This document shows positions 46,976 through 55,757 of a DNA stretch of 64,000 nt, in pieces (the stretch's first letter is position 1; each line of letters starts with the position of its first letter). The position numbers and the translations under genes are program-made. The stretch covers positions 1-64,000 of the forward strand of contig CAIXRH010000181.1 of the NCBI GenBank assembly GCA_903921785.1, written 5' to 3'. The notes beneath the pieces were generated by a model. That model saw only the letters and a program-made list of their open reading frames with translations. It made no database searches and was not told where the DNA came from. Origin of the DNA: an uncultured Pseudomonadota bacterium (GTDB lineage Bacteria; Myxococcota_A; UBA796; SXON01).

Positions 46976-46979
<4 letters not shown>
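46512..46979 (-). CDS. MazG-like nucleotide pyrophosphohydrolase
   Basis: This is 155 aa from the ATG at 46979, which overlaps the ABC-F stop as ATGA. The all-alpha NTP-PPase core has SVEANELLELYLW (ExxExxE) and EAADVLITLLNFADR (ExxD), as in the RS21-C6/dCTPase branch, which hydrolyses (d)NTPs to monophosphates. An unusual Pro/Ser-rich head (VGSPPGPPPSSRAGTDVGE) is encoded over a copy of dispersed element C (46928-46965), so the repeat seems to have inserted into or become the gene's 5' end. Confidence 0.9.
46928..46965 (+). repeat. Dispersed element C, copy 2, inside the MazG-like gene
   Basis: This reads cggctcgcgaggatggagg followed by agggccgggaggtgaaccc. It matches the copies at 28179-28216 and 63469-63507 in core and order. 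It lies antisense to, and in frame with, codons 5-17 of the MazG-like gene. Confidence 0.6.
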
Positions 46980-48835
<1,856 letters not shown>

Positions 48836-50503
48836 CTACTGGATGACCAGTTCGACGCGCCGATTCTTCGCCTTGCCTTCGGCGGTCTGGTTGGTGTCGA
48901 TCGGGCGGGTCTCGCCGTAGCCGACGCCGGAGAGCCGCGCGGCGTCCACGTGGCCCTGCTCGACGAGGTACTTCACCACCGCGTCGGCCCGGCCCTGGGA
49001 GAGCTTGGTGTTCTTCTTGTCGTCGCCGTCGCTGTCGGTGTGCCCGCCGATCTCGATCTTGCTGATCTCGGGGTGGGCGTTGAGCACCTTCGCCACCTCA
49101 TCGAGCAGCGAGTAGCTCACCGGCTTGATGGTGGTCTTTCCCGTGTCGAAGTACACAGACTCGTTGAGCTCCACGCGCTTGCTGGTGACCACCACGCGGT
49201 GGGGGCAGCCGTCGGACTTCGCGGGGTCCTCCCGGGGGTCCTTCGGCTCGGTCGGGCACAGGTCGCGGGCATCAGGGACGAGGTCGGCGTCCGTGTCGGG
49301 GCAACCGCCGCTCTTCGCGGGGCCGGCCACGGCGGGGCAGGCGTCGTCGCGATCGGCCACGCCGTCTTTGTCCTTGTCCGGGCAGCCGTCGGTGGACTGC
49401 GGACCGGGGGCGGTGGGGCAGCTGTCGTCGCCGTCGGTGAGCCCGTCCTTGTCGTTGTCCGTCTCGGGGCACCCGTCGCGGTCCTCGAAGCCGTCCATGT
49501 CTTCGGCCTGATCCGGGCAGGTGTCGGCGGAGTCGAGCAGGCCGTCGCCATCGTTGTCGGAGTCGGGGCAGCCGTCGGTGTCCTTGTACCCGTCGACGTC
49601 CTCGGCGCGATCCTTACACTGGTCGAGCTTGTCCTCGATGCCGTCCTTGTCCTTGTCCGGGGGCGCGCCGTGGTGGTAGCCGGCGGCGAGCACCAGCCGG
49701 AAGTCCGGCGCGCCCACGCCGGCGACGATGCCGGTGCCGAGGCCGAGGGTCCCGATGAACCCGGACTCGTGGGCGTAGGTGCCGTATACGTCGAGCTCGG
49801 TGGGGTTCTTGTTGAAGGTGCCGATGCCGTTGACGAGGCCGATGTTGCTGTTGAGCTCACCGCCGACACGGAGCTGCTCGTTCACCAGGTAGGCGAGGCC
49901 GAGCCCCCAGTCGAGGGTGCTGCCGAACTCGTAGCTGCCCAGGGTGGACGACGGCGCGAGCGTGGTGCCGAAGTTGCCGGAGATCACCAGGTTGTCGGCG
50001 AGCTTCGCCTCAGCGCTCGCGACAAGGCCGGCGGAGAACCCGTCCACGCCGACGAGCCCTTCCTTGCTCGCGGTGGGCAGAGCGATGAACGGCTTGAACC
50101 CCAGGCCAACCGGGGAGCCATCCTCCAGGCGCATCACCGGGAGCATGCCGCCGATCCGCAGATCGCCGAACGCGCCGCCTTCGTAGTCGGTGCCCGGCAC
50201 CGCCACGTCGGGGTACGTAGGGATGTCGAGGTCCAACCGGACGATGCTGCCGATGGTGTAGCCGCCGACGAGATGGATGCCGAACTGGTCGCTCACATAC
50301 GACGTGGTGCCGCTGTCGCTCGTGGTGACGACGGGGTTGTGCGCGTAGACGAGCTGGAGCCCGCCGTAGTAGGCACCCGGGGCGGACAACGTGGGGGATT
50401 CGACCTGGAGGCCGCCCGCGCCGTCGAGCGTGGAGCCGGCGGGATCATAGGTGTCGGCGTCCACGGCCAGGGCGGACGAGGCGAGGAGGAGGACGAGCGA
50501 CAT
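48836..50503 (-). CDS. OmpA-family outer-membrane protein with thrombospondin-3 repeats
   Basis: This is 555 aa. Signal peptide MSLVLLLASSALA. Residues ~20-270 form a beta-barrel-like region (YGGLQLVYAHNP, LDWGLGLAYLVNEQLRVGG). Residues ~275-430 carry calcium-binding TSP3 repeats (DKDKDGIEDKLDQCKD, DSDNDGDGLLDSADTCPD). Residues ~440-555 are the OmpA peptidoglycan-binding domain (YFDTGKTTIKP, IGGHTDSDGDDKKNTKLSQG, then GYGETRPI). It links the outer membrane to peptidoglycan. It lies 36 bases after the sulfatase stop. Confidence 0.93.
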   Translation of the reverse strand: MSLVLLLASSALAVDADTYDPAGSTLDGAGGLQVESPTLSAPGAYYGGLQLVYAHNPVVTTSDSGTTSYVSDQFGIHLVGGYTIGSIVRLDLDIPTYPDVAVPGTDYEGGAFGDLRIGGMLPVMRLEDGSPVGLGFKPFIALPTASKEGLVGVDGFSAGLVASAEAKLADNLVISGNFGTTLAPSSTLGSYEFGSTLDWGLGLAYLVNEQLRVGGELNSNIGLVNGIGTFNKNPTELDVYGTYAHESGFIGTLGLGTGIVAGVGAPDFRLVLAAGYHHGAPPDKDKDGIEDKLDQCKDRAEDVDGYKDTDGCPDSDNDGDGLLDSADTCPDQAEDMDGFEDRDGCPETDNDKDGLTDGDDSCPTAPGPQSTDGCPDKDKDGVADRDDACPAVAGPAKSGGCPDTDADLVPDARDLCPTEPKDPREDPAKSDGCPHRVVVTSKRVELNESVYFDTGKTTIKPVSYSLLDEVAKVLNAHPEISKIEIGGHTDSDGDDKKNTKLSQGRADAVVKYLVEQGHVDAARLSGVGYGETRPIDTNQTAEGKAKNRRVELVIQ

Positions 50504-50539: not shown

Positions 50540-53056
50540 TCAGTCCTCCGCGCCCGGGTCCCCCTTCAGCGCGGGATCGAGCGCCGGGGTGGCCCGATCG
50601 TCGCTCACCGGCGGCTCCACGTCGAGGTCCCCCTCCGGCTCCGCCGCGTTTCCCGCCGTTCCCGCCGGAGCGAGCGGGGGCAGCGACCACTCTTCGCCGA
50701 GCACCGGTGGGTTGTCCTCGGCGATCCCCTCCAGCTTGGCCGGGTCCTGCTTCGGGCGAGGGAGGATGGCGACGGAGGCCACATCCACGAATTCGTCGCC
50801 CTTGTCGGTGAGGACGGTGTTGCCGGTGACCCCTTGCCACGAGACCCGGATCACGCCGTCCCCAGCCCGGGTGTACGCCGGGGCGGAGACGCGAAAAGTG
50901 TCGGAGACGGCATGGCCGATCTTCCAGTTCCACATCCGCAGCGCGCCCATCAGGGGCGTCCACTTCACCTGCCCTGTGCGCTTGCTCGCCACGAGCTGGG
51001 CCACGAGCGTCCACGCGTCGTTGATCTGGCGCTCGGCGCGCCAATCACACTGGACCCAGACCTCTTCCGCGGGGATCGCTTCAGCCTGCTCCGCGCGGCA
51101 ACCGAGCAGGGAGAGCTCTCCGCCGCCCCACGAGGCGATCGCCGCTCGGTCATCGGGGTGTTGGAGGCCGTCAAGCACCTGCGCCTGCCGCGCTTCGTAA
51201 CGACCGCGCACCCGGCCATACCAGGCGCGGGTCTCCTCTTGCCACCTGCCCCGCTCCTTCTGGAACTTCCGCCCCAGATCGGACTTCTCCCCCGGGTCTT
51301 CGGCCACGTCGAACACCTGGCTGGACGCTTCCCCGTAATGATCGAGGAACACGGTGTTCCCCTCCCGACGGGCGAGGCACCGATGCGAGCGCCAGCAGGA
51401 GTGGAACAAGACCCGCCCCTCCGGCGGCGGCGAGAACAACGAGCTCCCCCGAAGTTTTCCCTCGGTGACCGGGGCCCCGATGGCCTCCAGGATGGTGGGC
51501 ACGACGTCGATCTGCTGGCGATTGCCCTCGATCTTCCCGGTGCGTCCCGCCAACGCCTCCTTCCCGACCATCACGAACGGGATGTGAAGCCCCTCCTCGT
51601 AGATCGTCAGGTCGTGCTGATAGCGGCCGTGCTCGCCAAACCCCTCGCCGTGATCGCCGAGGATCACGAACAGCGTGTGGTCCGCGAGACCGCGCTGTTC
51701 GTAGGCGCGGATGAGGCGGCCCGTGAAGTCGTCGACATATCGGACGGCGTTGAGGTACTTCTCGAGGCGCCCACCGATCCCCGGAAAGTCCAGGAGCTGC
51801 ACGTGCTTGGGCAGCGTGTAGTCATGGTGGGACGCCAGGGTGAGGTAGGTGGCGAAGAACGGCTTCTCCGGCGCCTCCTGCGACCATTCCAGGCCCGGCG
51901 CGAGCATCGAGCGGTCGTCGATCCCGAAGTAGTTGTTCTTCTCCCAGATGGGCTGGGAGAGAGTGTCCCGACTACGGAAATGTTCGTACCCCATCTGGTG
52001 CACGAGATCCACGCGGTCTTCGAAGTCTTCTCGGGCAGGCTGGAAGAACGCGGTGCGGTACCCCTGCCCCCGCAGCATCCCGGGGAGACAGTTCCCCGGG
52101 AGTCCGCCGGGCTTGGCCTCCCGCGCGTCGCCCACGAGGTTGGGCCAGTCCCCGCAGAGGGTGGTGATGAGCGCCTTGGTCGTGTGGGTGACCGCGGCGT
52201 ACATGTTCGTGGCGTACACCCCCTCCCCTGCGTACTTCACAAGGTTCGGCGTGGTCTTGAGCTCAGGTTCGTAGAGCGTGGTGCGGTTGGCCCCCACGCT
52301 CTCCATCAGGATCACCACCACATTGTACGGCTGAGCAGGCGCGCCGATCTTCACCGGCACGAGGTCCGCCGGATCGGGGACCGTGAACACGTCCTGCCGA
52401 CGATCCATCGCTTCCCAGAAGAGCTTCTCGGCGATGGTGGGCTGGAGGTCCCGCACCGCCTTGCTCGGCTTCACCCGCCCCTGGGACTCAAACCAGATCA
52501 CGGGGAGGAGGGCGAGGATCCACAGGCGGGAGTACCAGGTGCGGGTCTCACGCTTCGGAGTCCACACCACGGGGAGCAAGGTGAGGCTGACCAGGCCGAG
52601 CACGGCGTAGACGTGCCAGGGCCGAAGCTCACTCTTGATGACCGGCCAGACCCGGGCGAAGTCCTCCACGCCAAACAGGATCGTGTCGAGGTCCGTGCGC
52701 CCGCCGGTGACCAGGAAGAAGTTCAGGTCGGCGAGGGTGGGCGCGAGCACCAGCATGATGCAGACATGGAGGAGCACGCGCAGGACGCTGCGCCAACGCC
52801 GCCACGGCACGCGGCCGAGGAGGACGAAGACCATGACCCAGACGCCCCAGAACTCCATCTCGCCGATCTGCACCGAGAGCGTGTCCCAACCCTGCGGCGG
52901 CGAGGTCCGCTGCTTCATCACGAAGATGCGGCCGCCCACGAGCACGAGGAAGGGCACCAACGAGCCCACCCCATACACCCACGCCTCGCGCACGGTCGGG
53001 GTGAGCCAGTCCAAGAATCGGAGGACCCGAAGGGCCCAGGTGCGCGCTCGGATCAA
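50540..53056 (-). CDS. LtaS-like membrane sulfatase-fold phosphotransferase or hydrolase
   Basis: This is 838 aa. About four or five membrane spans occur in the first 190 residues (LVPFLVLVGGRIFVM, VWVMVFVLLGRVPW). An alkaline-phosphatase-fold sulfatase domain (~235-560) has VVVILMESVGANRTT (metal Glu), VTHTTKALITTLCGD with a candidate nucleophilic Thr, FFATYLTLASHHDYTLP and VILGDHGEGFGEHGR (metal Asp-His). This layout matches LtaS/phosphoethanolamine-transferase-like enzymes. The C-terminal ~250 residues are Pro/Glu-rich and unrecognised. A divergent lipid-kinase gene starts 53 bases away, hinting at lipid head-group metabolism. Confidence 0.85.
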   Translation of the reverse strand: MIRARTWALRVLRFLDWLTPTVREAWVYGVGSLVPFLVLVGGRIFVMKQRTSPPQGWDTLSVQIGEMEFWGVWVMVFVLLGRVPWRRWRSVLRVLLHVCIMLVLAPTLADLNFFLVTGGRTDLDTILFGVEDFARVWPVIKSELRPWHVYAVLGLVSLTLLPVVWTPKRETRTWYSRLWILALLPVIWFESQGRVKPSKAVRDLQPTIAEKLFWEAMDRRQDVFTVPDPADLVPVKIGAPAQPYNVVVILMESVGANRTTLYEPELKTTPNLVKYAGEGVYATNMYAAVTHTTKALITTLCGDWPNLVGDAREAKPGGLPGNCLPGMLRGQGYRTAFFQPAREDFEDRVDLVHQMGYEHFRSRDTLSQPIWEKNNYFGIDDRSMLAPGLEWSQEAPEKPFFATYLTLASHHDYTLPKHVQLLDFPGIGGRLEKYLNAVRYVDDFTGRLIRAYEQRGLADHTLFVILGDHGEGFGEHGRYQHDLTIYEEGLHIPFVMVGKEALAGRTGKIEGNRQQIDVVPTILEAIGAPVTEGKLRGSSLFSPPPEGRVLFHSCWRSHRCLARREGNTVFLDHYGEASSQVFDVAEDPGEKSDLGRKFQKERGRWQEETRAWYGRVRGRYEARQAQVLDGLQHPDDRAAIASWGGGELSLLGCRAEQAEAIPAEEVWVQCDWRAERQINDAWTLVAQLVASKRTGQVKWTPLMGALRMWNWKIGHAVSDTFRVSAPAYTRAGDGVIRVSWQGVTGNTVLTDKGDEFVDVASVAILPRPKQDPAKLEGIAEDNPPVLGEEWSLPPLAPAGTAGNAAEPEGDLDVEPPVSDDRATPALDPALKGDPGAED

Positions 53057-53109
53057 CTCTACCGCCGCCGTTGAGCGCGCGCGCGTAACCGAAAGGATAC
53101 GACAACGGC

Positions 53110-54126
53110 ATGCAACTGTTGGTCGGAAATCCGACGGCGCAGTCCGGGCGCAACGCTCGCCGGATCGACGAAGCCCGCCGTCTCCTCCATCTCGCGGGGG
53201 TGGACCACGACTTCCTCCCCACCCGCCCCGCCGGGCAGACCGTCGCCGACGTGGCGAGGGCCCTCTCGGGCGGCGCGTACACCGCCGTCATCGCGATGGG
53301 CGGGGACGGCACCTTCGCCGAGGTCGCCAAGGGCCTCCTCCGCGCCGGCGCGACGATCCCGCTCGCGATGCTCCCCACCGGCACGGCGAACGACCAGGGC
53401 AAGTCGTTCGGGATGGAGAGCTCCGCCGCCGCCCTCCCCCGAAACGTGGAGATCGTCGCCGCCGGCCACACCACCCCGTTCGACGCGGGCCGGATCACCG
53501 CCTACGGCGCGGTGGACGATGAGCTCGGACAGGACTACTTCTTCGACAGCGCCGGCTGGGGCTTCTCGGCGTTGGTCCTTCGGATGCGCAACGAAGACCG
53601 CAAGCTCGTCGGGGGCATCCCGCTGCTCCGGGAGCTCTACCGGGATCACGCGGTGTACGCCGGCGCCGTGGTGCGGGCCCTGGCGCTCTCGGCGGTGCAC
53701 GAGCAGCCCTTCGAGGCCGAGGTGCACACCTCCGCCGGCGCCACGTTCTTCGAGGACCTCCTCGATCTGGTGGTGAAGAACACCCGGGTGTACGCGGGGA
53801 GCTGGGTATTGGACCCGACGGGCTCCCCGGAGGACGGGGAGATGGACCTCGTGCCCTTCCGCGGGCGCGAGGAGATGATCACCCGGAGCGTGGTGCACCT
53901 GGAGCAGGTCCCGTTGCAGGAACGTCACCTGGCGGCGGTCGGCCGGCCGCTCTCCGAGGGGCTCCGTTCTTCCTGGTTCGACGTACATCTCCGCCCCCGA
54001 CCGTTGGCGCAGGCGCCCGAAGCCCAGCTCGACGGCGAGGAGTGGATCCGCGCCGAACGGTACCGGATCGACGTCATCCGCCACGCGCTGCGCCTGGTGG
54101 TCCCGGTCGCGATTGAGGGACCGTGA
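53110..54126 (+). CDS. Diacylglycerol kinase-family lipid kinase
   Basis: This is 338 aa. The DAGK catalytic signature GGDGTFAEVAKGL and PTGTANDQGKSFGM are intact, preceded by LVGNPTAQSGRNARR. This is the DgkB/YegS/sphingosine-kinase-like fold, which phosphorylates a lipid hydroxyl with ATP at the membrane face. The C-terminal beta-sandwich (FFDSAGWGFSALV) follows. Its stop overlaps the next gene as GTGA. Lipid substrate is unknown. Confidence 0.9.
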   Translation: MQLLVGNPTAQSGRNARRIDEARRLLHLAGVDHDFLPTRPAGQTVADVARALSGGAYTAVIAMGGDGTFAEVAKGLLRAGATIPLAMLPTGTANDQGKSFGMESSAAALPRNVEIVAAGHTTPFDAGRITAYGAVDDELGQDYFFDSAGWGFSALVLRMRNEDRKLVGGIPLLRELYRDHAVYAGAVVRALALSAVHEQPFEAEVHTSAGATFFEDLLDLVVKNTRVYAGSWVLDPTGSPEDGEMDLVPFRGREEMITRSVVHLEQVPLQERHLAAVGRPLSEGLRSSWFDVHLRPRPLAQAPEAQLDGEEWIRAERYRIDVIRHALRLVVPVAIEGP

Positions 54127-55757
54127 ACACGTGGTTGGAGCTCCACGTCGACGACGTGCTGCTCTCGCTCGATCCCGGCGCCTGGCCGGAGGTGGCGGCG
54201 CTGCTCGACGGCGCGGCGCGCGCCGCGGAAGCCGAAGGCGGGCGGCTGTCGTTCCGGGTCCGGGCCGCCTTCGCAGAGGGAGATCGTACGGGCTTCCTCC
54301 GCGGCCTGATGGCGCGTGGGCACGAGGTGGGGGCCCACGCGCACGGAAAGGACCTCGACGCCGCCGTGGCGGCGCTGCGAGGAGCGGGCATCGCTCCTTC
54401 GGTCTTCGCGCCCGGCCTCGTGCAGGCCGGCGTCGCGGGCGAGGCGGCGCTGGTGGCCCGGGCCGTCGCGCTGGGCGCGACCGGGATCACCGATCGCCTG
54501 GAACTGCGGCGGTGGACCTACCAGGGGTGGCTGCCGCGGCGGCACCCCGCCGGCCCCTGGATGCTCGACGTCTCGGTGTCGCCGTGGGCGTGGGGCGTGA
54601 TCCGCGACGGCCCGGAGGGGCCCGAGCCCACCCACGCCCTCGACTGGGCCGCCCTGGATCGATGCGCGCGCGTGCAGGCGCGCTGGCGCGCGCCCGCGGG
54701 ACGAACCCCCTTCTTCGGCGCCACCTTCCACGAGCACGATCTCTGCCCCCCTCGCGCCCTCGCCCCGTCAGACCCCAGCTTCGACGGGCTTCGTCGCTGG
54801 GTGGCGGCGTGGAAGCCGGGGCCGAGTACGTCCTCCGCAGTAGGCCCCGAGGTGGAGGGAGCCGCGCCGGCGGGAGCTGCCGGGGCGCCCGACGGCCTGC
54901 CGGCGCCGCCCCCGTCCACCCCACCCCGGCTCCACCTCCCCTGGCCTCGCCGCGCCCCCGATCCCACGGATCGCCACCCCCTCCTCCATGCCGCGCTCCG
55001 CCGCACCCGCGCCGCCGCGCTCACCTGGGCGGGCGCCCGCTTCGGCGCCCACGAGCTGCCGCCGCATCAGGTGATCCGCGGCGCCACACCCCGCGCCACA
55101 GTCGTCTGCGTCCACGCAGGGGAAGGCGGCCTGGTCGAGCGGCTGCGCTTCCTCGGCCTCGGTGACGAGGGCTTCGGCCCCGACGTCGACCTCTGGCTCT
55201 ACGCCCGCCGCCCCGCTGGCTGGGCGGCCCCCGGCAACCCGGCGCACGTAGACGACGCCCGGCGGGTGCTCGCGGCCGCGGCCCGGTCGGGGCTGCCGGT
55301 GATCGTGCTGACGTGGAGCGGCGGCTGCGTCCCGGGCGCACGCGCGATCCTCGAGCTTGCTGAGGCCGAACCTGCGCTCTGCGCCCGGGTCGCCGCCCTG
55401 GTGGACGTGGAGGGGCCGCCCGACCGGCTCGCCCTGGTCAAACCGGGTGCCGACGCTGAGTGGGCCGCCTTCTCCCCCCATGACGATGCGCCTTGGGTGG
55501 GTCGCGAGCTCGTCGCCCTGCTCCCCGAGCTGGCCCGCCTCCCCTCCCCTCCGGAGTACCACCGATGGCAGGGTCGGCCGGACCACGTACACGGCGAATG
55601 TACGCTGCACGCGGATGTGGCGATGGCCGCCGCGCGGGCGGCGGGCCTGCGCGCGGAGCTGGTCCGCGTCGACGGCGAGATCGGGCGCCAAGGGGGGCGA
55701 TGGAGCGCTTCGCTCGCCGAGATCCTCGATCGTGTCGCTCGCGAGGCGCGGCGGTGA
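54123..55757 (+). CDS. NodB-like polysaccharide deacetylase fused to alpha/beta-hydrolase-like domain
   Basis: This is 544 aa from the GTG overlapping the lipid-kinase stop. Residues 1-220 resemble a NodB deacetylase barrel: LELHVDDVLLSLDPG (DD motif), LMARGHEVGAHAHGKDL (His motif) and FFGATFHEHDLCPP. A Pro/Ala linker (~230-290) leads to a C-terminal domain (~300-540) with ATVVCVHAGEGG, VIVLTWSGGCVPGARAIL (Ser in a nucleophile-elbow-like WSGG) and HGECTLHADVAMAAA. No signal peptide, so it acts in the cytoplasm. The two halves and the kinase suggest stepwise work on one lipid-linked substrate, which is inference. Confidence 0.65.
   Translation: MNTWLELHVDDVLLSLDPGAWPEVAALLDGAARAAEAEGGRLSFRVRAAFAEGDRTGFLRGLMARGHEVGAHAHGKDLDAAVAALRGAGIAPSVFAPGLVQAGVAGEAALVARAVALGATGITDRLELRRWTYQGWLPRRHPAGPWMLDVSVSPWAWGVIRDGPEGPEPTHALDWAALDRCARVQARWRAPAGRTPFFGATFHEHDLCPPRALAPSDPSFDGLRRWVAAWKPGPSTSSAVGPEVEGAAPAGAAGAPDGLPAPPPSTPPRLHLPWPRRAPDPTDRHPLLHAALRRTRAAALTWAGARFGAHELPPHQVIRGATPRATVVCVHAGEGGLVERLRFLGLGDEGFGPDVDLWLYARRPAGWAAPGNPAHVDDARRVLAAAARSGLPVIVLTWSGGCVPGARAILELAEAEPALCARVAALVDVEGPPDRLALVKPGADAEWAAFSPHDDAPWVGRELVALLPELARLPSPPEYHRWQGRPDHVHGECTLHADVAMAAARAAGLRAELVRVDGEIGRQGGRWSASLAEILDRVAREARR

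Follow-up and report, generated by a model that had tools for sequence, protein, structure and literature searches.

The window, by which we mean the whole 64,000-nt stretch analysed here, spans positions 1 to 64,000 of contig CAIXRH010000181.1 (assembly GCA_903921785.1) and derives from an uncultured member of the GTDB lineage Bacteria; Myxococcota_A; UBA796; SXON01, whose genome is 96% complete. The locus of interest comprises a divergent gene pair and a third, fused gene, with the following features:

50540..53056, minus strand: LtaS-like membrane enzyme of the sulfatase superfamily, 838 aa (Pfam Sulfatase), a candidate phospholipid-headgroup transferase
53057..53109, no strand: divergent intergenic region, 53 bp, which the kinase operon shares with the LtaS-like gene
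53110..54126, plus strand: soluble DAGK_cat-type lipid kinase, 338 aa (Pfam DAGK_cat)
54123..55757, plus strand: fusion gene (open reading frame) with a NodB-like half and an alpha/beta-hydrolase half
54123..54860, plus strand: NodB/CE4-like half of the fusion, residues ~1-245 (AlphaFold and Foldseek; HVDD, GHEVG-AHAH, HEH)
54861..55064, plus strand: low-complexity linker of variable length, residues ~246-313 (low pLDDT)
55065..55757, plus strand: alpha/beta-hydrolase half, residues ~314-544 (Foldseek; WSGG with S399, DxExPxDR, YxRxQxxxDH)

The first-pass annotation had tied the kinase to the fusion through a GTGA overlap, and the coordinates bear this out: the kinase stop codon (TGA, 54124-54126) and the fusion start codon (GTG, at 54123) share four nucleotides. 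Membrane-segment prediction found hydrophobic segments at the N terminus of the LtaS-like protein, the catalytic domain of which would lie in the periplasm, and none in the kinase or the fusion; lacking a predicted membrane segment, the fusion is probably cytoplasmic. Directly behind the LtaS-like gene lies a gene for an OmpA protein with thrombospondin type 3 repeats (48836-50503, minus strand), a position kept in most genomes of the window's genus, and next after it one for an ABC-F-type ATPase (46976-48835, minus strand).

The kinase had been called a DAGK-type enzyme, and the Pfam DAGK_cat model matched it at 2.5e-22 (79.2 bits against a cut-off of 23.6). Its closest solved relative among PDB sequences was DgkB (1.8e-9), followed by YegS (2.4e-8), with the GGDGT, PTGTAND and C-terminal LDGE motifs evident in the alignments. 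It scored under every lipid-kinase subfamily cut-off, the best being TIGR00147, the DgkB / YegS subfamily, at 72 bits against 118.65. These scores would suit a kinase that phosphorylates a sphingolipid or some other lipid, in which case the product of the trio would be a special phospho-sphingolipid or phosphoglycolipid. Activities overlap among the kinases of ceramide, sphingoid bases and phosphatidylglycerol, and the Caulobacter ceramide kinase CpgB, to which we liken the window enzyme by description, is also a soluble bacterial lipid kinase (PMC10331486); no cpg-like neighbours were seen at the window kinase. We regard this explanation as quite unlikely, given that DgkB is the nearest structure and that diacylglycerol would be the by-product of the kinase's conserved partner, the candidate headgroup transferase. 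The membrane kinase DgkA (PF01219) was not found in the window's genome, which encodes four DAGK_cat proteins, so that it must be a DAGK_cat enzyme that recycles diacylglycerol.

The divergent gene, first described as LtaS/phosphoethanolamine-transferase-like, encodes a protein that matched Pfam Sulfatase (PF00884) at 2.5e-48. LTA synthase was its best named transferase model in NCBIfam (2.4e-18), below the cut-off, and the LtaS equivalog threshold lay far above its score (66 bits against 970); arylsulfatase models scored the protein equally well. Its PDB relatives were VP1736, LtaS and LtaP. Seventeen orthologues share the invariant residues E252, T292, H410/H411, D468 and H469, among which, presumably, are the Thr nucleophile and the metal-binding Glu, Asp and His, roles that we assign from LtaS. 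With the membrane anchor, these are features of a headgroup transferase. From its sequence, the protein belongs to the sulfatase superfamily, closest to LtaS among the named transferases, and headgroup transfer is its candidate function.

Across the 22 genomes of the window's family that were compared, the LtaS-like and kinase genes form an adjacent divergent pair in 18, in 9 of which the fusion is absent or elsewhere; the full trio occurs in 9 genomes. Every one of the 13 fusion-bearing genomes in genera g1, g2, g4 and g5 carries the kinase-fusion tandem, the two genes being -4 to +76 nt apart; it occurs in none of the four genomes of genus g3 and in no other family. The LtaS homologue sits on another contig in four genomes (G041, G043, G044 and G029), and in the first three of these the tandem is kept without an adjacent LtaS gene. 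Conversely, five genomes (G046, G047, G049, G030 and G039) have the LtaS/kinase pair and no detected fusion. Conservation of the trio, which had been put forward as a check, is therefore upheld for the pair and for the tandem, but not as a fixed unit, since each pairing occurs without the third gene: the arrangement is more than chance, and it is modular. Trees of both proteins track genus and family lines, with several deeper forks unresolved, which makes it more likely that the tandem was gained and the fusion lost within the family than that transfer occurred repeatedly.

The pairing itself resembles known systems. LtaS releases diacylglycerol, which DgkB returns to phosphatidic acid, and in Escherichia coli DgkA recycles the diacylglycerol left after MDO synthesis (PMC10865820); close linkage to dgkA is described for mcr-3, which encodes a headgroup transferase (PMC7559476). 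In LtaS-DgkB of Firmicutes, as in MdoB/EptA/MCR-DgkA, a diacylglycerol-releasing transferase is likewise paired, functionally or genetically, with a diacylglycerol kinase (PMC10865820, PMC7559476). The present case differs in that the genome is of the Gram-negative type, with LpxC and with neither MdoG nor DgkA, and in that the genes form a divergent pair with an extra deacylase fusion in the operon. An Opg-type glucan was considered as the acceptor and judged unlikely, because MdoG is absent from this 96% complete genome; together with the presence of LpxC, that absence means that an OpgG-dependent periplasmic glucan is probably not the acceptor. Considered jointly, the missing DgkA and MdoG, the four DAGK_cat proteins and LpxC make a transferase and a diacylglycerol recycler the most likely identity of the pair. 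By analogy with the characterized families, the ancestral, family-wide divergent pair would consist of an LtaS-like transferase in the cytoplasmic membrane, which would pass a phospholipid head group (glycerophosphate or phosphoethanolamine) to a periplasmic acceptor and leave diacylglycerol, and a soluble DAGK-type kinase, which would convert this diacylglycerol to phosphatidic acid.

The third gene is harder to place by sequence comparison. No Pfam, NCBIfam or PHROGs model matched the fusion, it had no significant match to PDB sequences, and a profile of 21 homologues reached 0.1 at best against the same set. Given the lack of any family-model match, the window sequence by itself was insufficient to confirm the protein. 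Homologues occur in 26 of the 71 genomes of the class, and in a sample of 284 genomes from the phylum full-length fusions are confined to that class. No paralogue of the whole fusion is present in the window's genome, where the one relative is a stand-alone protein related to the C-half. Literature searches for the architecture of NodB joined to an alpha/beta hydrolase returned nothing relevant. The full-length AlphaFold model has a pLDDT of 70.1, which falls below 50 over residues 241-314. In three genomes (G041, G043 and G044) this linker is replaced by a stop and restart, the N-half ORF ending at 238 residues and the C-half lying in another, overlapping frame (in G043 the C-half is cut by the contig end). 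The halves of the G045 fusion lie on two contig ends, which reflects an assembly break and not a split gene. The split-gene versions suggest that the two domains are functional partners. Divergent from the kinase in these three split-gene genomes is a gene for a protein of ~430 aa that is not LtaS-like (L044:4694, minus strand; L045:2265-3560, minus strand; L046:8758, plus strand), with only a weak linalool dehydratase/isomerase-like match.

Both folds proposed for the fusion in the first-pass annotation were recovered. An AlphaFold model of the N-half, built with eight sequences (pLDDT 83.1, pTM 0.85), has the distorted beta/alpha-barrel of the NodB fold, and its top 25 Foldseek matches were mainly CE4/NodB-fold entries, including 3RXZ (E 3.8e-6), Salmonella ArnD (8t0j, 1.1e-4) and the CE4 structure 2cc0 (4.5e-4); the query TM-score against ArnD was 0.59, joint highest among the best matches. 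Residues H8, V9, D10, G66, H67, G70, H72, H74, P97, G98, D124, W157, H203, E204 and H205 are invariant over 23 N-halves, in the motifs HVD, GH-x-x-G-x-H-x-H, PG, TD, PxxWG and HEH. Set against the published NodB motif definitions (PMC10967932), the tandem Asp of MT1 appears as HVDD (D10 invariant, D11 in at least 90%), the GHEVG that precedes MT2 is exact, and the MT5 His is H203, at the end of strand 197-203 and within HEH. MT2 itself, canonically H-[ST]-x-x-H, is altered: the His pair is H72-A-H74, and no conserved His occupies the canonical second place. In the MT3 (RPPYG) region, P97-G98 is invariant without an adjacent Arg, for which the invariant R45/R47 might substitute. The CE4/NodB model PF01522 matched none of the 21 homologues at E <= 1. 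The NodB1.2 CE4-like proteins (3RXZ, 1Z7A, 3S6O) and PuuE allantoinase share the fold, and GHEVG before MT2, the MT1 Asp-Asp and the MT5 His are points of comparison with this group; the fusion differs from the group in being joined to an alpha/beta hydrolase, and from PuuE in retaining the MT1 Asp pair, which PuuE lacks. Three larger proteins (L102:2266-4179, plus strand; L103:1301-2458, minus strand; L104:2973-4535, plus strand) match just the start of the NodB-like half, for example RVSFQLN...GHSVGVHFH; two have lipoprotein-like segments, and the two that were scanned had no Pfam match.

For the C-half, the top 50 Foldseek PDB matches of the full-length model were all alpha/beta hydrolases (e.g., 3u0v, 2.1e-5), and Pfam Hydrolase_4 was found in 7 of 21 fusion homologues (best 9.4e-6), the window's own hydrolase half falling under all Pfam cut-offs. 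Residues S399, D428, E430, P432, D434, Y479, R481, Q483, D487 and H488 are invariant, and R435 nearly so, over 21 fusion C-halves and 9 stand-alone paralogues. S399, at the nucleophile elbow, is thus present in 30 of 30 sequences. Unlike S15/S33-type hydrolases, the fusion half has no conserved His after the last strand (none beyond residue 518), and an invariant D487-H488 is placed after the preceding strand. The simplest reading of the model would be a hydrolase triad with its His after strand 7. The S-x-G elbow is shared with these hydrolases and with the stand-alone paralogues (L092, L096, L107), and DxEGPxDR and YxRLQxxxDH with the paralogues.

Such stand-alone relatives of ~300 aa occur across most of the class (L092:4880-5866, plus strand; L095-L101; L107; E ~1e-18 to 1e-29) and carry the signature SxSLG, DWEGPxDRE and YxRLQxxPDHAQP with a partial Peptidase_S15 match, the cut-off of which was passed by two of the three scanned. 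They are an unannotated class-wide hydrolase family. Longer relatives from other families of the phylum (L105:3338-4741, minus strand; L106:1175-2446, minus strand) keep the DVEGP and RxQ...DH region; that of L105 looks lipoprotein-like, and the nucleophile Ser seems to have disappeared from both (TIGTG, SFGYG), so that from their sequences they are possible pseudoenzymes.

These departures from the canonical motifs could mean that the fusion has lost catalytic activity in one half or in both and serves to regulate or scaffold the kinase. The H-x-H form of MT2 and the last hydrolase strand with no conserved histidine after it fit such a role, as does the half-degenerate homologue of G028 (L058:7763-9373, minus strand), which has lost H72 and the HEH motif and kept the hydrolase Ser. 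We nevertheless hold it to be very improbable, since D10, H72, H74, H203, S399, D428 and H488 show little or no variation among sequences of 30-45% identity, and the hydrolase signature is retained in the stand-alone S15-like paralogues. The NodB and alpha/beta-hydrolase fusion is an unannotated, conserved two-domain enzyme family with candidate catalytic residues.

What the fusion acts on can be approached through ArnD, which deformylates undecaprenyl-phosphate-4-formamido-L-arabinose, a lipid-linked sugar. ArnD and the N-half have a NodB1-like fold in common, and the proposed analogy is amide hydrolysis of a lipid-linked head group at the cytoplasmic face. Unlike ArnD, the fusion is joined to a serine hydrolase and has H-x-H spacing at MT2, and hhalign found no significant match of the N-half profile to Escherichia coli ArnD (E 0.038 at a probability of 1.4%, against 0.85 and 0.097 for the negative controls), so that the link is one of fold only; no arn genes were seen adjoining the fusion. 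Since the fold resembles that of ArnD and the gene is tightly coupled to one for a lipid kinase, our best guess is that the substrate is a lipid-linked head group in the cytoplasm. In most genera of the family, then, the fusion, translationally coupled to the kinase, would be a cytoplasmic two-domain deacylase, in which a NodB-type metal-dependent amidohydrolase is joined through a flexible linker to an S15/S33-like serine hydrolase. It would most likely strip acyl groups, both N- and O-linked, from a head group that is linked to a lipid or derived from one, as ArnD acts at the cytoplasmic face. We infer this substrate, the direction of the reaction and the activity of both halves from fold, motifs and coupling.

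The wider neighbourhoods of the fusion bear on an alternative, in which its substrate is a soluble sugar, nucleotide-sugar or small molecule, outside lipid chemistry, and it merely shares the kinase promoter in some genera. In g3 and other families, its neighbours are unrelated and partly housekeeping (MoxR/DUF58-like, a zinc transporter, LeuRS, RelA, and a glycosyltransferase-radical SAM protein, the last in family f2), and beyond g1, g2, g4 and g5 no lipid genes were seen among the neighbours examined. A lipid role is therefore not forced, and this mobility makes a soluble substrate a serious rival, as does the LtaS/kinase pair persisting in the five genomes with no detected fusion. Against it stands the tandem, which is invariable and closely spaced in the fusion-bearing genomes of four genera, even where LtaS has moved, and we think this alternative on balance improbable. 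In two f2 genomes, the protein near the fusion is a glycosyltransferase fused to radical SAM-SPASM (L056:1759-4056, minus strand; L057:11006-13288, plus strand), and an AhpC/TSA-like gene lies between the two.

The best explanation as a whole, in which our confidence is evenly balanced, is a transferase and diacylglycerol-recycling kinase pair plus a coupled cytoplasmic deacylase fusion. A bolder version, in which a new class of dual deacylase would mature a lipid-linked head group with the kinase and the LtaS-like transferase, to yield an undescribed envelope lipid, and would use a shifted triad (Ser, acid and His following strands 5, 6 and 7, respectively), we consider unlikely. The first-pass annotation had staked its proposal on both folds and on a conserved neighbourhood; with the folds confirmed and the neighbourhood conserved, neither ground for setting it aside applies, and it is plausible that the three proteins build or trim an unusual lipid head group. 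Given the known pairing, diacylglycerol recycling explains the relation of LtaS to the kinase more simply.

Pairs of a headgroup transferase and a diacylglycerol kinase are known to take part in the synthesis of teichoic acids in Gram-positive bacteria and in the modification of lipid A. Our comparison points to such a pair, conserved as a module, in a large lineage of uncultured bacteria and, if the substrate of the fusion is indeed lipid-linked, to an envelope lipid of theirs that has yet to be described.
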